Shown here in pieces: positions 20,401 through 61,514 of a DNA stretch of 64,000 bases. The notes beneath the pieces were generated by a model that ran no database searches, had not been told where the DNA came from, and saw only the letters and a list, made by a program, of their open reading frames with translations. The DNA lies in NCBI GenBank assembly GCA_950295325.1, contig OX485809.1:14570001-14634000 (forward strand). The letters are read 5' to 3'. The first letter of the stretch is position 1. Every line of letters begins with the position of its first letter. A program made the position numbers and the translations under genes. This DNA is from Polytrichum commune. Lineage: Eukaryota; Streptophyta; Polytrichopsida; Polytrichales; Polytrichaceae.

Positions 20401-23400
20401 CCATTGGGGACGAAAGACGATGTTCAATCGGTTTAATTTGTCCAAAAAAAGGAAGCCATAAGTAATCCAACTATGAATCTCATGGAGAGTTTGATCCAGC
20501 CTCGGGATAACAATTGGCGACATGATTAACACATGCAAATCGTATGAGAAGCATCCTAGTGGTGTTAAATTTGCTTCCAACATATAAGAAGATTCCTTTT
20601 TGCACATCAATTGAGAACTGGCAACTAGTCACCTATCAACTGATTGAAATGACTTTGAAAAGATGAATCAATTTAAAATTTGAAACCTTAGCCCCAAAAA
20701 AACTTATCATTTTCAAAGAATAAAGAGACTATTCTCTAGTTTTCTTGAAAGCATGAACTGTTAGAAAGCTCAAAAAATCGATTCACTTCGGAAGACTTAG
20801 GATCTTAACTGGGTTGCCTTCAAATTCTTCCTGTTCGATGGTTGAATCTAGAGATCGATCAAACAAGGTGTTGGTTTCAAAAATGAGAGAAGATGAGTAG
20901 AGAGGACCAACAAGGAGCTCACCACTAGCCTTATGCTAAGCTCAAATTTTGTATCTAGAAATGGGAGCCCAAATTCTTCGAGTTTTCATTATGGGCCTCG
21001 AGACATCGTACGAAGATGGTTGACGACGGTTACTTATTGTTGTTATTGTTTTGAGGAGATCCTTATGTCAGTTACTTATTATTACTGTTGTTGTTTTAAG
21101 CTGAAAAAATGCCAAGAGTGACTCCACCCAAACGTAACCCATTAATTAATTGCATTCTCCCGATCGGAGCATGCATACCAGCATGCATACCAGCATGCAT
21201 CTTCCTGTCAGAAGGAAATACTAGAAACTTCGGGCTTGTATAAAGGACCTAGATTCAAATACATACTAACGTATATCATTCTACCATTGCTACTTAGGAT
21301 TCTACTTTTTTTCTCTCTGTAGTAGTTTAATATGTGAAAACATAGATCTGTAATGCCCAGATGTGGTTTCACAAGGACTGACAAATAATGAAAGGTTTAC
21401 ATTTCGTGTTAATGACAGTACACAAGCAGTTTTACAACTACACTAAAATTTTGTATTTAGTGTCACTTACCGTTTGCAGTTACACGATGCTGTATAATTT
21501 GACTTGTAATGTAACTTTCTACCAAGTAAAAGATGTTAAATGTTCCATAATGTCCAAACAACCAATTTGACCTTTGTTGACAAAACATTACGTATACAGT
21601 AAATAGATATAGCATTGGGCAATTCCAAATAGTAAGTGACACTAAATACAACAGTTAGTGTAGTATTGATCAAGACAATAAAATTGGTGTCATTAATTAC
21701 AATATTAAGTGAAACGGTTTCAGCATCAAAGAATCTTTTTAAAATCGTCAGTATGGAATATAGGGCGAGGATTTTTACTATATACATACCAGGAACCCGA
21801 AGCGGCGATTCCCACGACTCCTCCTTTGAGTTGGAGTGAGAATGCCATTCGTAATATTGAGCAGGCTTTGGAGCTCGGCCGCTGTGTCTGTGATCGGTTG
21901 ACTGAAATCCACATAAATTCTGAGGCTGCTCATGCTATTGGTAGCCTGGACAGTCCGCGCTTGCTCCCGAATTACAACTTGGGAGTTCCCAAATGCAGTC
22001 CAAACATTCACTGTGGGCTGTGTTCGATCTGGAAAAGAAAAATTAAGCAATTGATGCGTAAGGTTAATGAACTTGGGACAATTTTAATGAGCGACAACAG
22101 CATGATTTTACCTGTAAAGCTCCCTACAAAAACCACCAGTGAATTGGGAGAACCGAACACTGTGTAGTTAAGATGAAGCGGTTGAGTTTGAGGAATAACC
22201 AGTTGAAGTTCAAAGCTTCAGGAGAATTACAGATTGTTATGGAGGAATCTATGGAATATATCCCAAATTAATAAAGGAAAACCGAAAGATCACACCATGT
22301 AACCAGTTGGACTTGGAAACACTAGGATTTTGACCAATAAGGTAGAGATGCAGGAGACATGCCTTGATTCAGTTGCTTGTCTTTATTGAATACCTATATT
22401 TGAGTGGTATGTGATTTGGTGTGGCTCCAAGAATGGATACCAAAAAGACATGTGCTTAAGAAGGGCCATGCTCAAAATATGATAACCATTCTAGGCTCAA
22501 TAGTCGACATCATCGGGGGGCATATATGACCATTTAATGAGCATATGACTCTTCACTTTGATAATGAATAAGATGTTCATACGAGTTCTGGAATTTATTA
22601 GGAAAGCGGCTACAACCTCGATTTGGATTTGCTCCAACTTTTGTACTAATTGCATGTTCATGTTCCTGAAGAAGTGGACTAGTAAAAAAAAAGTAACCAT
22701 TGAAGACCCATCTACCTATAGCCCAAAAATCTCCCCAAACACTACCCCCAACAAATTATGTTTGACTGGGTATAATGCTTAAGGGCCGGTTCACATGGGT
22801 CCCAAGTCACTTGAGGTCAATCTGTGCAATCTCCACCGTTGAGAGCATAGAAGTTGGGACTTACCACTTCACATGGGTCCCAAGTCCTAAGTCCCAAGTA
22901 TGACATGGATGCCTACATGGCAACACTTTTTGGAGGTGAGGATCAAGACTTGTGTTGAGAGTTGGGTCGAGCAAAATGCTAAACCCAACTCTCAACACAA
23001 GTCCCCAAAAACCTCTATTGCATAAATTAATCAAGATTAGACTTTCATGAATATAAACTGTATTTTAATGGTTTCTTGGGGCTCAAAAGTTGGGACTTCG
23101 CCTCCACGTTGGGACTTCACTAGCATGAGTGAGACTTGGGACTTGGGACCCCATGTGAACCGGCCCTTGGAATAGTCAACACACTTTGAACACTTTGAGT
23201 CCAATCTCTTTTAAACAAGTGTATTTTTTGGTGTCCGTTCTTAGATCCCACCCAACGGACACACCCTACTCAAATGTAGGTGTCCAATTAAGATAAGTGA
23301 CCGAATTAGGCCCACTTACCTTGATTTAGTCCCTGCTTTTGTCTTGAAAACCTCAACTAAGAATCTACCCACAGTTTCCAAGGGAATCGTTAATGGTGGT

Positions 23401-30659: not shown

Positions 30660-30881
30660 TCTAATCTTCATCACTTCAAATTAAACAACAATCCTCACGA
30701 TTCATGTCGATTGCTGCTGACTGGAAAACCGGAATCACAGTGAGGTTCCTTATCCAGGGTAAGCCATGAACACTTGCTGTTGTACTAACTTTGAAAGTCT
30801 TCCGAAGGTTAATGGGATGGCAGTGGGCTCATCAGATCCGTTGTGTGTGAACTGGTACCACAGAAATTAAAACTTTGTGGT

Positions 30882-30977
30882 CGATGATGATGATGATCTA
30901 GATGGACTCGGACGCTAAATTAAATGACTGAACTTATTACTTACAGATCGCTCATCATCATCATCATCATCATCATC
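30882..30977. repeat. opposed GAT and ATC microsatellites
   Basis: A (GAT)n run at about 30882-30896 and a (TCA)n run at 30952-30977 about 55 bp downstream are reverse complements and could pair. Confidence 0.8.
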
Positions 30978-31198
30978 TGCTGGGACTCACCGGCTCTTAT
31001 CTTATATGCACACAATTTCAAACATTATAACCACAGTAGTAGTGTCCTTTTGTTCATGGGCATTGAATTAACTTAGTGGCCAGAGAGAGGTTGACCACCG
31101 CTCCATTTGGCACCGGTTTGAAGGTGCAAATCCCGTTCTGACACCACAACAAAATTCAACGCGAATCCGTGTTCATTTTCCTCAGTCTTAATCAATTA

Positions 31199-31540
31199 AC
31201 ATGTAGACTCTAACCTCCCACATGTATATCACGCCCGTGGCAACCAAAGTGCACGTGATATTGAGGAGGTATGTAGTGTTAACATGGATGTGTGATGATG
31301 GAGAATTAGTGTAGCAGGTGACATTATGGAATAATATAAAGTGAACAGTGTGTTAATGACAGTGATGATGATGTGATGCGTGCGAGCGTGTGGTTCGGAT
31401 TTTTGGGTGGACTATTTCCGTGTCAAAACAAGTGATATGTGTGTGAGAGGGAAATGTGACACCAAGTGGGGAGATTGAAACTGAGCACATCCGTTCCCTA
31501 GGGTTTCAGGATATAAGAGACGGAGTGATTGCAGAGGTTA
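31199..31540. repeat. uninterrupted copy of the repeat that holds the FAD gene fragment
   Basis: 31199-31350 aligns with 59353-59510 (GTGGCAACCAAAGTGCACGT, GTGTTAACATGGATG, GAGAATTAGTGTAGCA) and 31362-31540 aligns with 60873-61050 (GATGTGATGC, GGGAAATGTGACA, ACATCCGTTCCCT, GGGTTTC, GGAGTGA). In this copy the two halves are nearly adjacent; in the other they are parted by about 1.36 kb containing oxidoreductase exons. No long open frame. Confidence 0.75.
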
Positions 31541-31742
31541 GGGTGTATCACTTGTGTGACCATCTTGTGTTCTCTTTTTTACTTGAAAACGAGCCTAACT
31601 TACCGTTGTGTCAAGTCAAATTGTTTGATGATGATAGTTTGTCGAGTCGAATTGGTGATGATGATTGGCTTTAGTGGTCTAAATTTGGTTAGCGTTGGGT
31701 TTGTAGGGTTTATTCTAGTATGAAGAATTGACTGCTTGCTAA

Positions 31743-45655: not shown

Positions 45656-45882
45656 ACTACACTAGATATTGTATTTAGTATCATTTACTATTTGGAGTTA
45701 CATATTTCCTTCTTCTTTTTACTATCAATGTAATTTAACCAAGTAAAGATGTGAATGTTCTATAATGTCCAAACAACCAATTTGACCTTTGTTGGTAAAA
45801 AAAATTGAGATTTAAAATACATAATTATAGCATTGCATAATTTCAAAAAGTTAGTGACACTAAATACAATATTTAGTGTACT
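45656..45882. mobile_element. family-A MITE copy
   Basis: ACTACACTAGATATTGTATT at the left and AATACAATATTTAGTGTACT at the right; the interior CATAATGTCCAAACAACCAA-type block and TTTGACCTTTGTTGG match 21437-21664 closely. Confidence 0.75.
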
Positions 45883-47960: not shown

Positions 47961-49416
47961 GTACCTACCTGAAAGATAGGACAAACAACACTCACTACAG
48001 AACCCTCACGTATGAACTAATAAAGAACAGAAAGAATGGGATAATTTAAGATGGAAGAGAGTCAAGAATGAGAATTACCATACAATGTTATTGTGAACCT
48101 TAATCCAATGTGACATTAACCCTTAGAGACACTAGCTCAGTCTTCCTGGAGACCTTGTTCCCTGGGTTTTGTTGTTTTAAAGATAATCCAAAAACTTACT
48201 ACACTGATCATACTTAACATAAACATTAGGATCCTAAACTTCAATCCCTATATTAGCTCTATTAGAAATTAATGGCCCCACATTTTATACCCATCTACTA
48301 AACTTATAACAAGGTTTTCTACTTTTAATAGACCCTTCATTGTTTGGAATTAGTTTATAATTTGCATTTCAAATGAATTTAATCCTCCTCCTTATATTAT
48401 GTTGCATGTCATTTCTAAAATGCACGAAGTGACCCACTTGTGGTACTATCAGGATTCTTGATGAAAATGGCCTATTTCAATGTAAATTGCCATTTTGTAT
48501 ACATAATGAAGATACATACAAGTATGAATGAACATTTGTATCAAAGAAATATGCTCACAATGTTCTCCAAGGTTTCTTAAGGTTCCCCTCCATGTTCCAA
48601 AGTACTAATCACATATGAATCTTGAAATACATGTGAGTCCCATCACTTATGCACATTAATGACCTTTGTTATATGACAAATCGTGCCTAGAATGTCGTAT
48701 TACAAATGTCATAGTCGTAACATGGAGGTAAATTAATGATAGAAAGTTGGTCGACGAAAAATGCATTGTATGGTCAAGGTGTTGTATAAATGAGTGTTGT
48801 AATATGGAGGTTACACTATAGTTCAATACATTGGGAGCTTTGGGAACACTAGAACCCTATTTTCTAAATTTGTTCTCTAGAACTCTCAATGAATTGGCAC
48901 CCCTCAATAATAAGACAACATACCTTAATATGTGTTGCAATGATTAATTTCCTACATAACATTACTCAACTATATATTTATACTTTGTGGGGCCGGGGAT
49001 TTATTAGGCATTATGTCCCTAATAGTATGGGTTCCTCCACATTTTGGGTGTACTCACCATGACCATTGTTCACCACAACAAGTTGCACTGACAACTAGAG
49101 TAGAGCCACCCATAACTGATCACTTAAGAGATTATGTGCCAAATATGGAGAAGTATAAGGCGGTGCAATTTTTTCCCATGTAGGATGATAGAAATTAAGA
49201 GGACTGCAATTTTTTTTGGGTAATGTTGTTCCCTATTTTGAAATTACTATGAATTTTTGAAACCAAAAGTTGGCCCAAACACATTATCAATGTCTAGAGT
49301 TTGCCACAACCACTCATTTTGAGATGATTTCCTTCTCACTTTAGCACTCAAAACCGGGACATGTGTCATGGCACTGTCGATTCCATGGTAATACCATAAC
49401 GGAAGTTGAAGACTTG
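47961..49416. other. gene-free stretch
   Basis: A/T-rich, no exons recognised. 49140-49200 shares an inverted block with 33480-33550. Confidence 0.4.
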
Positions 49417-49824
49417 GGGTGAGTTTCCATGTAGGCGAGTGTCCACAACCCACCATATTCTAGTGTGAATAATGACAAACCCGCCCAAATGTAGAGGGAA
49501 TCTAGTGGGGTAGGGTACGTATGTACCGACTAGCTACTTCTCAACTTTTCAAATGTGGGTCCACCTACTAACCTCCTCCTCTAGGTTAAAACCTCCTCCT
49601 CCTTCTAAAACCGGTATTCAAACCCTTCGGTGACCGGCACTTGTAGGTTGAAGATTATTTAGTGGATGCATGGAACTCTAGCGGCCCGTGTCCACAACCC
49701 TCCACATTCTAGCGGACCGCCAAAATGTGGTTGGATGGTTGCTTGCACGTAAGTTTATGCGAACACCTCCAACCCATCATTTTCTAGAATCTAGTGGGCA
49801 AGTGGCCTACCTGGAAACTCACCC
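49417..49824. mobile_element. Tourist-like MITE with GGGTGAGTTTCCATG ends, copy 2
   Basis: 408 bp, ends GGGTGAGTTTCCATGTAGGC and CCTACCTGGAAACTCACCC; flanks TTG and TTA, so the duplication is imperfect. A further partial relative follows at about 49840-49945 (GATTCTAGTGGAAATG, CAACCTACATGGA). Confidence 0.8.
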
Positions 49825-57420: not shown

Positions 57421-59350
57421 CGCTATTTACAAAAAATTAAACTACATTTTTCGATGGCCTAGAAATATCACCTATACTAGTTGTCAACACAACAAATGTC
57501 AACATGCATAACTTTTTGATGTGGTTTTTTTTACAACATGACATTCAATGTAGCATGTTGGAGTACTTGAGTTGATAGTTTTATGTTCTAACTTGGTATG
57601 CAAGAGGAGGATATTTATGAGGATATTAATGCCAAGCATCATGTGTTTACACTCATGGTCAACAAGTTGACTATTATTTTGACCTAGACATAGGCATCAT
57701 AATATTATAAAGCATTCTAATGTTGAGATATTATTGAGCATACTAATACCAAGTATCATGTGAGTTATCACTTTTGACATACATTTTCGGAAGTTAAAGA
57801 TATGGGATTATATTATGATACGAGAATGAATGATGCCCCATACATAAAAACTAGTAGTGTTTTTGTGTACCAAGTTAGTGTTTGGAGGGAGGTAACCCTT
57901 CGAGTCTAGAGTTATGAGATTGCCTATGGGAAGGTTGGATTATGCTTAGTTTGCAGTTTAAGGTATGTATGATTGTAACTTAAGAACATACAAACTCTGA
58001 TCAACATTCTTCCTCATTGAAAAATGCTAGCAAAATGAGTTCTTCAGGTTATATATTTCCTCATATGATCATTCATCCAATGGCCATATGGGTCTTCGGA
58101 GTTGGAAGTGGCCACAATAGGCACATGTACCTTATGGCAGATTGAGGGAAACAATCATAATAGGAAGTGTTTTCAAGAAGGTTCAAGGTATGGATGGAGG
58201 ATGGGATGGAGTTAAGGAAGAGAGGGATGAGATAGGTGGGTCTTGAGATGTTAAAAAATATAAAAGATGTTGCAGAAGGCTCCCTATTCCAACCCAAAAC
58301 ATTTAATTTTCCCTCAAATTTTGCCATGTGTCATGCTCACGTTCACTGAGAACCACTTGTATTCCATGTGGAAATTATATTCCAACACAAATAAAGATGA
58401 GATAGAGAGCCCTCTACAGTATCGGGTTGAGATGGATGGTTGGGTCACTAAATGGCTAGAGCTTTGTGGTGTCTCAGTAAACCCATCCATTAGCTGGAAG
58501 GTGAAAACTCAATGTACTATTTCATAACTTGCAACCTTTTATTTTTTTAGACTTTGGACTTCAGAATATGGTATTGGAACCCTCAAATTGGTCTTGTAGG
58601 CACCGGTTTAATATAAGTTGACTCTCAATCTACATGGACTTCTTTTACAAGAGCTGCTTCATCCACATTGGATGAGTTCACATAGACATTGTGAATCTTA
58701 TGCTCTCACAATGATTCTTGATGTCTACATAAACTCATCTATTAGATAGGTGACATAACATTACTCAACTAATGAGATGTGTTTATGGGCCCAGTGGTAA
58801 ATTCAAGAATAAAAGTCCGGATGTCGGAATCCCAATGCTTCAAATTGATTATGAAGTCAAGACAACTGAACACAACTCATTAGCTGATTCATATTATGGA
58901 AGACATTGTGAATTATTTTATAGCCCGAAAATGGTCATTTCCTTTCTTTCTTTCTTGAGATTTGATCCAACATTGGCATCAAAGACCCATGATTAGGACC
59001 CATGCACTTGGAATAAATTGGCCCTTGACATGTAGGGGGCTTGTTGTTAAATATGGATGGGTTTTACATATAATCTTCATGATCTTTGTGTAACTCATTG
59101 CTCACAAATGAAGGGGTCCAGAAAAAAAAAAAAAAAAACGCCTTGTCAGGTTGGGGCCAATTTATTCTAATTGGACCCTAATAGAGTAATTTGAGATCTT
59201 TGATACCATTTATGGAATTGTATTATCTAGAAATACCTATTTATATTTAAACATTTGGTGTGCTTTCACCTTCCTAATGGACGAGTGTATTTACAACACC
59301 ACGAATATTTGGTCTTGCAAAAATATGGGATATGTGTATCGAACATTCAA
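57421..59350. other. gene-free stretch
   Basis: Open frames of 60-86 codons at 58073-58527 and 58772-58996 show no family features. An 18-A run lies at about 59121-59138. No exon recognised. Confidence 0.4.
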
Positions 59351-59352
59351 TA

Positions 59353-59510
59353 TGTACACTCTAAACTCCATAATATCATGCATGTGGCAACCAAAATGCA
59401 CGTGATATTAAGGAATTATGTTGTGTTAACATGGATGCATGATATAAGAGAATTAGTGTAGCATCTGATATTATGAAATAACACAAAGAGCAACATTGTA
59501 ATGTTGAAAT
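59353..59510. repeat. left half of the repeat that holds the FAD gene fragment
   Basis: Aligns with 31199-31350 (ATGTGGCAACCAAAATGCAC, GTGTTAACATGGATGCATGA, GAGAATTAGTGTAGCATC). The right half is at 60873-61050. Confidence 0.7.
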
Positions 59511-59597
59511 TGATAGTTTCATACATAAGACATGAATAATCTCTCCAAGTTGCACAAATATGCAAAGCTCAAGCTTTTTAAGATATGTTTCATCTAG

Positions 59598-60474
59598 AAA
59601 GTTGCAAAACGAAATGGTGCGGTGGTGGAGCTTCCAGAGAATGGCAGGGAGCTCAAGGCTAGGTTCCTTTACTTCCACTTCGAGGAGTTTCATGCAGGTG
59701 TAATCGAGCGGGGAGGGGCAGGGTGTGTGAATCCTCGGGCTATGGTGAAAGCGCAACTAGAATGTGCAAGTAAACATGGTGCACACGTAGTTCCAGAGAC
59801 AACGGTGGAAATTGCAGCCATTGATGATGATGATGTGGTTGTTACCAAAGATGGAGGCAGGGTTATCTCTACATTGAAAATTTCTTCTCTACACCGATGC
59901 TTATATGAATTTGCTTGATCAAGGATATACGAATCTGTTGTGCTTGCAGAAATTGGAGAGAAAGAGGTGGAGAGCTTGACAGGTTTGTCAGCCATCGTAT
60001 GGCTCCTTGATAATCACCCTCTCTTTCACTCTGTGAATGCTTGCCCTCCTGTGCTCTACCCTGACGGCGAGAAATACATTGGGATTGGTGGATCGCAGCG
60101 GAAGCTCATGCAAGATCAAAACCAGAGGATATCGTCTAGTGGTTTCACGGAGATGGTAGACCAGAGGTAATTGAATCACTCTAGAAAAGCCTCATTCAAC
60201 TACTTCCACAAACCTTCAACTCGTTCCAGAGAAAATTCATGCATCGTGGCCTACACTGCGATGAATTACCCTTACGTCACAACTATGGATGGCAAACCTG
60301 GTCCTGGAGCACATGTTTTCGTGTGCGCGGGTGGGTGTGGCGCCGTTGCCAAACTCTCGGACGAGATTAATTGGCCGCGTGGGTGTTCTCCTGATCGGCC
60401 ACGGCGTGTGGAAGTATGACATGGAGGAACAAAATTTCGCAGTACGTAGTTTCCTCGAAAGATCTACAACATGA
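59598..60474 (+). pseudogene. broken FAD-dependent oxidoreductase fragment, introns kept
   Basis: Three exon-like blocks: about 59598-59860 (ELPENGRELKARF..., NPRAMVKAQLECASKHGAHV, VPETTVEIA), 59950-60166 (EIGEKEVESL, NHPLFHSVN, CPPVLYPDGEKYIGIGGSQR) and about 60229-60474 (CIVAYTAMNYPYVTTMDGKP, VFVCAGGCGAVAKLSDEI). These resemble the middle and C-terminal parts of plant FAD-dependent (sarcosine-oxidase/DAO-like) oxidoreductases: substrate half, then the Y-P-DG-KY and GG-GA-AK-SDEIG motifs near the C-end. The N-terminal GxGxxG FAD site is absent upstream. At 60366-60372 the sequence ATTAATT shifts the frame: SDEI continues as IGRVGVLLIGHG only one base out of phase, as if four bases were duplicated. 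Introns are present (CTTGCAG before block 2, GAG/GTAATT after it, TTCCAG before block 3), so it is not a retrocopy. It lies inside a repeat whose other copy lacks it. Confidence 0.7.
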
Positions 60475-60872
60475 TTCATATCACAGTACTATGGTCCGAT
60501 GAAACTCTCTAACCGCTACGGCGATGGCTGAAGCTTCCCGCGGGCGATTCAATATCTGCTGCATCGACGATGGAACTTACTCGCCATAGCTAGCATGATG
60601 CGATTCAAGTATGTGAAATTGGTACACTGGAAGAGATTCACATATGCACCGCCCAAACAACCATGCACACAATTCACTATTCACTCTGAAAATGAAGGTT
60701 GGAAGCATTTCGAGCAAGGATTCTCCGAGCGTTCGCAACTGCTCTACGAAAGAGACGAGAGGCAGACGTAGAGGAGGAGGAAGGCTTCTCAGATCTACTA
60801 GAATCGTAGATATGGTGGTGGTTTTGGAAGATGTTGTGGATCCTCCATTTTGATAGATGTCAGGGGTTCCAA
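60475..60872. other. remainder of the insert beside the FAD fragment
   Basis: GC-richer than the surroundings, open in several short frames on both strands (for example 60891-60577 minus), ending in a polypurine block (AGAGGAGGAGGAAGG). It has no match in the 31 kb repeat copy, so it belongs to the same insert as the FAD fragment; its own origin was not recognised. Confidence 0.4.
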
Positions 60873-61050
60873 TATTGACGATGTGATGCAATGCGAGAGT
60901 GTGATTTGACTTCTTTGACAGTTTGCAATAATTTCAAAAATCCATGATATAAGGGAGGGAAATGTGACAATAAGGAATGAGATTTAATTTGAGAACATCC
61001 GTTCCCTGGGGTTTCGAGATTTTAGAGAAGGAGTGACATTTAAGGAGGTT
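60873..61050. repeat. right half of the repeat that holds the FAD gene fragment
   Basis: Aligns with 31362-31540 (GATGTGATGCAATGCGAG, GGGAGGGAAATGTGACA, GAACATCCGTTCCCTGGGGT, AAGGAGTGACATT). Confidence 0.7.
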
Positions 61051-61150
61051 GATAAAATGGAGTTTAATGTATAATATTCAAGCATAAATTCATATGTGCA
61101 TTTTTATTCAACCTATTCTAATTATATTCAAAGAAATCTTTGAGTGTAAC

Positions 61151-61246
61151 ACATAACATTATTCAAATTCATAACACTGTTATGTGGAACTAACAATATT
61201 CCATGGAATTCCTTAGAGATTGTTATGGATTTGAATAATGTTATGT
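61151..61246. repeat. palindromic foldback element, copy 2
   Basis: ACATAACATTATTCAAATTC at the left and GGATTTGAATAATGTTATGT at the right form a near-perfect hairpin of 96 bp, related to 30514-30659. Confidence 0.8.
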
Positions 61247-61514
61247 AGTACTACATCTATAAAAATAGGTTGAAATAAACATAAATTATATCAACTTTAT
61301 ATAATATCATCTAATATCATGAGGGTAAGTGCAAGGGAATTACTACTACAAGCGTCATCATGATCATGTCACTTCTAGATCATGTGTTGTTAGTAATGTC
61401 TAAAAAGTCCACACTCCATACTAGGTACATATTACATGACATGTATGAAGGAAAATATTAATATATGTTGTAGCATTGTCAGTCAATGTGGTCTATGAAA
61501 AATTAACATGGGCC

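Follow-up and report, generated by a model that had tools for sequence, protein, structure and literature searches.

A TA-inserting inverted-repeat transposon carrying a captured sarcosine-oxidase-like gene fragment in Polytrichum commune

Gene capture by transposons is a known process. Pack-TYPE elements of the Mariner superfamily (Pack-Mariner) have been described in rice and maize, mostly at low copy number (Gisby & Catoni 2022, PMC8903248), and the Tc1/mariner superfamily also includes the Stowaway MITEs, such as DcSto in carrot (PMC3695323). The window analyzed here, a stretch of 64,000 nucleotides (C7:14570001-14634000) of a 408-Mb genome that lies nearly entirely in seven large contigs, contains an element that is similar to Pack-Mariner elements in several respects: it is a terminal inverted repeat (TIR) element without a transposase, it occupies a TA target site, and it carries a host coding fragment whose intact parent is found elsewhere. 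Its TIR sequence is different, and the capture has been amplified to at least eight loci, whereas most of the rice and maize Pack-Mariner elements were reported to be low copy.

The terminal consensus of Stowaway elements is of the CTCCCTCC type. The family to which the window element belongs shares with the Stowaway MITEs short non-autonomous members, TIRs, the TA target site and a very high copy number, whereas its ends read TA-CACTCTAAACTCC instead of CTCCCTCC and its long members have foreign middles. The carriage of gene fragments is also common to Pack-MULEs, but the 9-bp target-site duplication of that class is absent here. The present case is a clear example of gene capture and is not new in kind; it is a new member of the Pack-Mariner type with non-Stowaway ends and an amplified capture, in a genome other than those of rice and maize.

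Structure of the element and its family

The element and its parts in the window are as follows.

59355-61073 (+): whole non-autonomous TIR transposon, about 1.72 kb; its arms and the same ends are present in dozens of family copies
59355-59378 (+): left TIR, TACACTCTAAACTCCATAATATCA, in which TA is the target dinucleotide
59379-59598 (+): left subterminal transposon sequence, common to other family members (to about 59590) and to seven other gene-carrying copies (to 59598)
59599-60684 (+): captured, dead sarcosine-oxidase-like (DAO) gene fragment, ending at about 60684 and 84% identical over 1,114 aligned columns to C3:8332007-8333107
60681-61049 (+): right subterminal transposon sequence, common to other long family members
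61050-61073 (-): right TIR, diverged
31204-31547 (+): compact MITE of the same family at another place in the window, 344 bp, TA...TA

The two ends and the DAO piece account for the 1.72 kb of the element, whose right end is at 61071 or 61073 because of an ambiguous terminal TATA. The 24-nt TIR arms are imperfect, matching at 19 positions, and none of 20,000 random pairs drawn from the same stretch was as good. The weakness of the right TIR in this copy (19/24) nevertheless counts against the explanation that we favor. No transposase domain was detected by Pfam in the open frames scanned within the element. Just to its right (window 61146-61251) is a 31-nt inverted repeat with 90% complementarity and a 44-nt spacer, which resembles a further small MITE.

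When the whole genome was queried with the 31 kb copy, 3006 first-look matches were returned, and the left and right halves gave 2601 and 2054, respectively; these are search candidates and not verified copy numbers of the family. Aligned family copies begin sharply at TACACTCTAAACTCC(A/G)TA(A/G)TATCA, after one unconserved base, and the 24-nt TIR of the family has 415 exact matches in the genome, as against none for the reversed control. The left and right terminal dinucleotides were equal in 32 of 61 two-ended copies, nearly all of them being TA, and none of the 61 was flanked by perfect direct repeats of 5-10 bp. Paralogous empty sites, found in other copies of the surrounding repeat, have a single TA at the junction for L103, L091, L048 and L016, as does one of two sites for L098 (compared with L049). 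The family copies have common TIRs together with a TA target-site duplication, as in non-autonomous Tc1/mariner elements, and it is solely because of the single-TA target-site behavior that we assign the family to this superfamily, as no autonomous element with the ends of the family was found to provide a matching transposase. The genome contains 149 DDE_3 transposase matches, several with intact frames, and none was tied to the ends of the family; when the exact TIR hits on C1 and on a portion of C2 were compared by eye with the listed DDE_3 loci, no locus lay between such hits.

Four further segments of the window (49410-49709, 45669-45880, 21445-21671 and 22372-22574) are copies of other dispersed repeats and provide the empty target sites for TIR family members that are located elsewhere in the genome.

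A sequence-only reading of the window had described the 59-61 kb and 31 kb copies as behaving like filled and empty versions of one site. The two halves do align with the 31 kb copy (59349-59499 with 31198-31351 and 60955-61036 with 31447-31528, at about 80%; E 4e-32 and 7e-16, respectively), well beyond what chance would give, as that reading had noted. The captured segment, however, is not bounded by 59510 and 60873 as proposed, its breakpoints being 59598/59599 on the left and about 60681-60684 on the right; 59514-59598 and 60685-60870 are also transposon sequence. Compact copies join points equivalent to about 59514 and about 60870, so that the sequence of 59515-59598 and 60685-60869 is missing from the 31 kb copy as well. 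The sequence at 31 kb, which belongs to a compact subfamily, is a MITE of the deletion type that occupies a different locus; it does not represent the 59-61 kb site in its empty state, the two being members of a high-copy TIR family at unrelated sites. A few hundred bases to the left of the 31 kb MITE, at window 30880-30980, are oppositely oriented runs of the trinucleotides GAT and ATC.

The parent gene and its captured copy

The search for an intact parent oxidoreductase, which had been put forward as a check, led to a locus on C3 (L010), where the gene lies at C3:8331664-8332920. This parent is one uninterrupted, intronless frame of 449 codons, full length and with an FAD-binding start, which matches Pfam DAO at residues 37-411 (E 2.6e-33). 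Its protein aligns near end-to-end with the monomeric sarcosine oxidase structures 1l9c/1el5 (E ~1e-12), its closest solved relative. It is single copy, being the only intact match to the captured gene in the genome, and the 1.5 kb flanking the parent match on each side contains no family ends.

The captured piece is a contiguous stretch of ~1.09 kb, comprising the 3′ two thirds of the coding region and ~190 bp past the parental stop. It begins about 145 codons into the parental frame, and the FAD-binding start is absent, in agreement with the description of a fragmentary FAD oxidoreductase between the two halves; the copy retains a Pfam DAO match for 59598-59915 (E 4e-05). The parent fits the monomeric sarcosine oxidase/DAO family, whereas the captured copy, lacking the FAD-binding N-terminus and frameshifted, is not a functional member. 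The copy is collinear with the uninterrupted parental frame, and the introns previously read into it are in fact a 22-bp deletion and frame-breaking indels. The frame is indeed broken, as had been stated, but not by a single frameshift: there are several frame-breaking indels (1-4 bp) and three in-frame stops. Differences from the parent amount to 13, 11 and 17% at codon positions 1, 2 and 3, a pattern consistent with drift in a dead copy and constraint on its parent.

Copies of the loaded element and other long members

Protein matches to the gene were found at only about ten places in the genome. The same left gene/transposon junction was present at seven other loci (L011-L017), falling at parent position 1497-1502 in all of them, and since these copies at other loci share the junction, we conclude that one capture was followed by amplification. 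All seven are without the segment corresponding to 60026-60684, the window copy has the longest gene piece, and recognizable right ends were found for the window copy, L016 and L017, being absent in the other gene-carrying copies. The seven shared junctions at other loci, together with the empty site for L016, indicate that the loaded element moved as a unit. For the stretch that these sequences have in common, a tree that took in the window copy, the parent, L018 and the copies with a located junction was a star with no supported inner branch, in which the parent branch was the shortest (0.059 versus 0.10-0.19 for element copies). The star shape suggests, weakly as regards timing, that amplification occurred in a burst soon after capture. 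At the junctions of the captured piece, just a few bases are shared, and on the right the family sequence stops short, continuing inward for about another 50 bp in other members.

Another piece of the same oxidoreductase gene, 83% identical and without the family ends, is located at C4:8551205-8551402 (L018:1484-1700). It adjoins long open frames that are hAT-transposase-like in appearance, with no Pfam or PDB match, and is possibly an independent capture by another transposon.

The genome was also searched for repeat copies with other captured pieces, as had been proposed, and other long members of the TIR family were found to have different middles. In one group, the middles contain phosphatase-like pieces:

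L024:230-1498 (-): phosphatase-like piece
L026:1954-2277 (+): phosphatase-like piece
L031, about 475-900: phosphatase-like piece, shared by DNA and protein similarity

Read against the direction of the element, the middles of L024 and L026 encode a fragment resembling diphosphonucleotide phosphatase 1 (3zk4; E 1.3e-10 and 4.6e-05, respectively). This identification comes from a search of solved-structure sequences, the Pfam scan of the pieces having given no match. Candidate donors are located at C1:1708357-1708566 and C1:1714474-1714683, and the phosphatase-like piece is likely to be a second gene captured by this family. When donors were sought for other middles, candidate loci emerged at C3:18944341, C1:1708367 and C1:1714595. 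Pfam scans of nine long-member middles (L069, L042, L058, L030, L037, L024, L022, L020 and L021), which covered some or all of the six frames of each, revealed no convincing known domain; L022 gave a weak PSME4_C signal (E 0.09) that found no support in a comparison with solved structures. A large long subfamily represented by L040:1632-2051 and its relatives has the same ends and 129 matches genome-wide; from about 130 bp inside the left end, it contains a decayed acidic open frame without a Pfam match, which could be a remnant of an autonomous-element gene or another captured piece.

Origin of the gene-carrying element

We consider the window feature to be a non-autonomous Pack-TYPE element of the Tc1/mariner kind, with TACACTCTAAACTCC... 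inverted ends, inserting at TA and carrying a captured gene (probability roughly 0.9). As in other Pack-TYPE elements, a host coding fragment lies between the TIRs, the parent is elsewhere, the whole moved as a unit, and no internal transposase is present. That a transposon captured part of a host gene, as the sequence-only reading had also proposed, is strongly supported by the inverted ends, the TA target site, the intact parent with no repeat ends nearby, and the seven additional copies that have this junction. The interior of the element may have been replaced by gene sequence during break repair, through a template switch or abortive gap repair; alternatively, gene sequence may have been trapped between two ends. 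A transposase supplied in trans from elsewhere would then have moved the loaded element, which was probably amplified in a short burst, and the window copy would now be decaying as a pseudogene within a dead transposon. It is difficult to distinguish capture during repair from a history in which a gene piece inserted into an element and the element moved afterwards.

Membership of the element in a different TIR superfamily (Mutator, hAT, PIF/Harbinger or CACTA), with TA flanks that are only apparent, is improbable. After the TA, its TIR starts with CACTC, loosely like CACTA ends, and canonical Stowaway ends (CTCCCTCC) were not seen in the aligned copies; against this, the empty sites carry a single TA, and among the 61 two-ended copies no flanking repeat of 3, 8 or 9 bp exceeded chance. 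The 9-, 8- and 3-bp duplications of Pack-MULE, Pack-hAT and Pack-PIF elements were found in 0/61, 0/61 and 1/61 copies, respectively, and these assignments were rejected.

We regard as very improbable the insertion of a gene fragment, such as a truncated retrocopy or repair filler, into an old immobile repeat with no later mobility. The copy is dead, as this would have it, and the parent is intronless, so that intron loss is no guide against a retrocopy; however, the seven loci with the same left junction in the same element, which have unrelated flanks, mean that the loaded element moved, the piece continues for ~190 bp after the parental stop and has no poly(A) tract, there is no flanking duplication, and the family sequence at the right junction was replaced rather than split. 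Slightly less probable still is the opposite history, also raised in the sequence-only reading, in which the repeat contained the oxidoreductase segment from the start and the 31 kb copy simply lost it; we reject this reading. Although the compact MITE does resemble an internal-deletion derivative of a longer member, the segment is not found in all other copies: the gene is matched at about ten places, compared with thousands of repeat candidates, the middles of other long members are unrelated, the repeat ends are absent near the intact gene, and the join in compact copies (equivalent to 59514/60870) differs from the capture breakpoint.

Returning to the Pack-TYPE element with its captured gene, we have the donor, the family that accepted it, the junctions, the empty sites and several descendant copies, so that the events by which a TA-inserting transposon captures a gene can be placed in order. 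The case adds an amplified example of the Pack-Mariner type, along with a second gene that this family is likely to have captured. A broader proposal, which we offer as speculation and consider rather unlikely in full, is that a TA-inserting, non-Stowaway family captures genes repeatedly (the oxidoreductase, the phosphatase and probably others) and amplifies them in bursts, and that the dead copies may influence the single-copy parent, for instance by giving rise to small RNAs.
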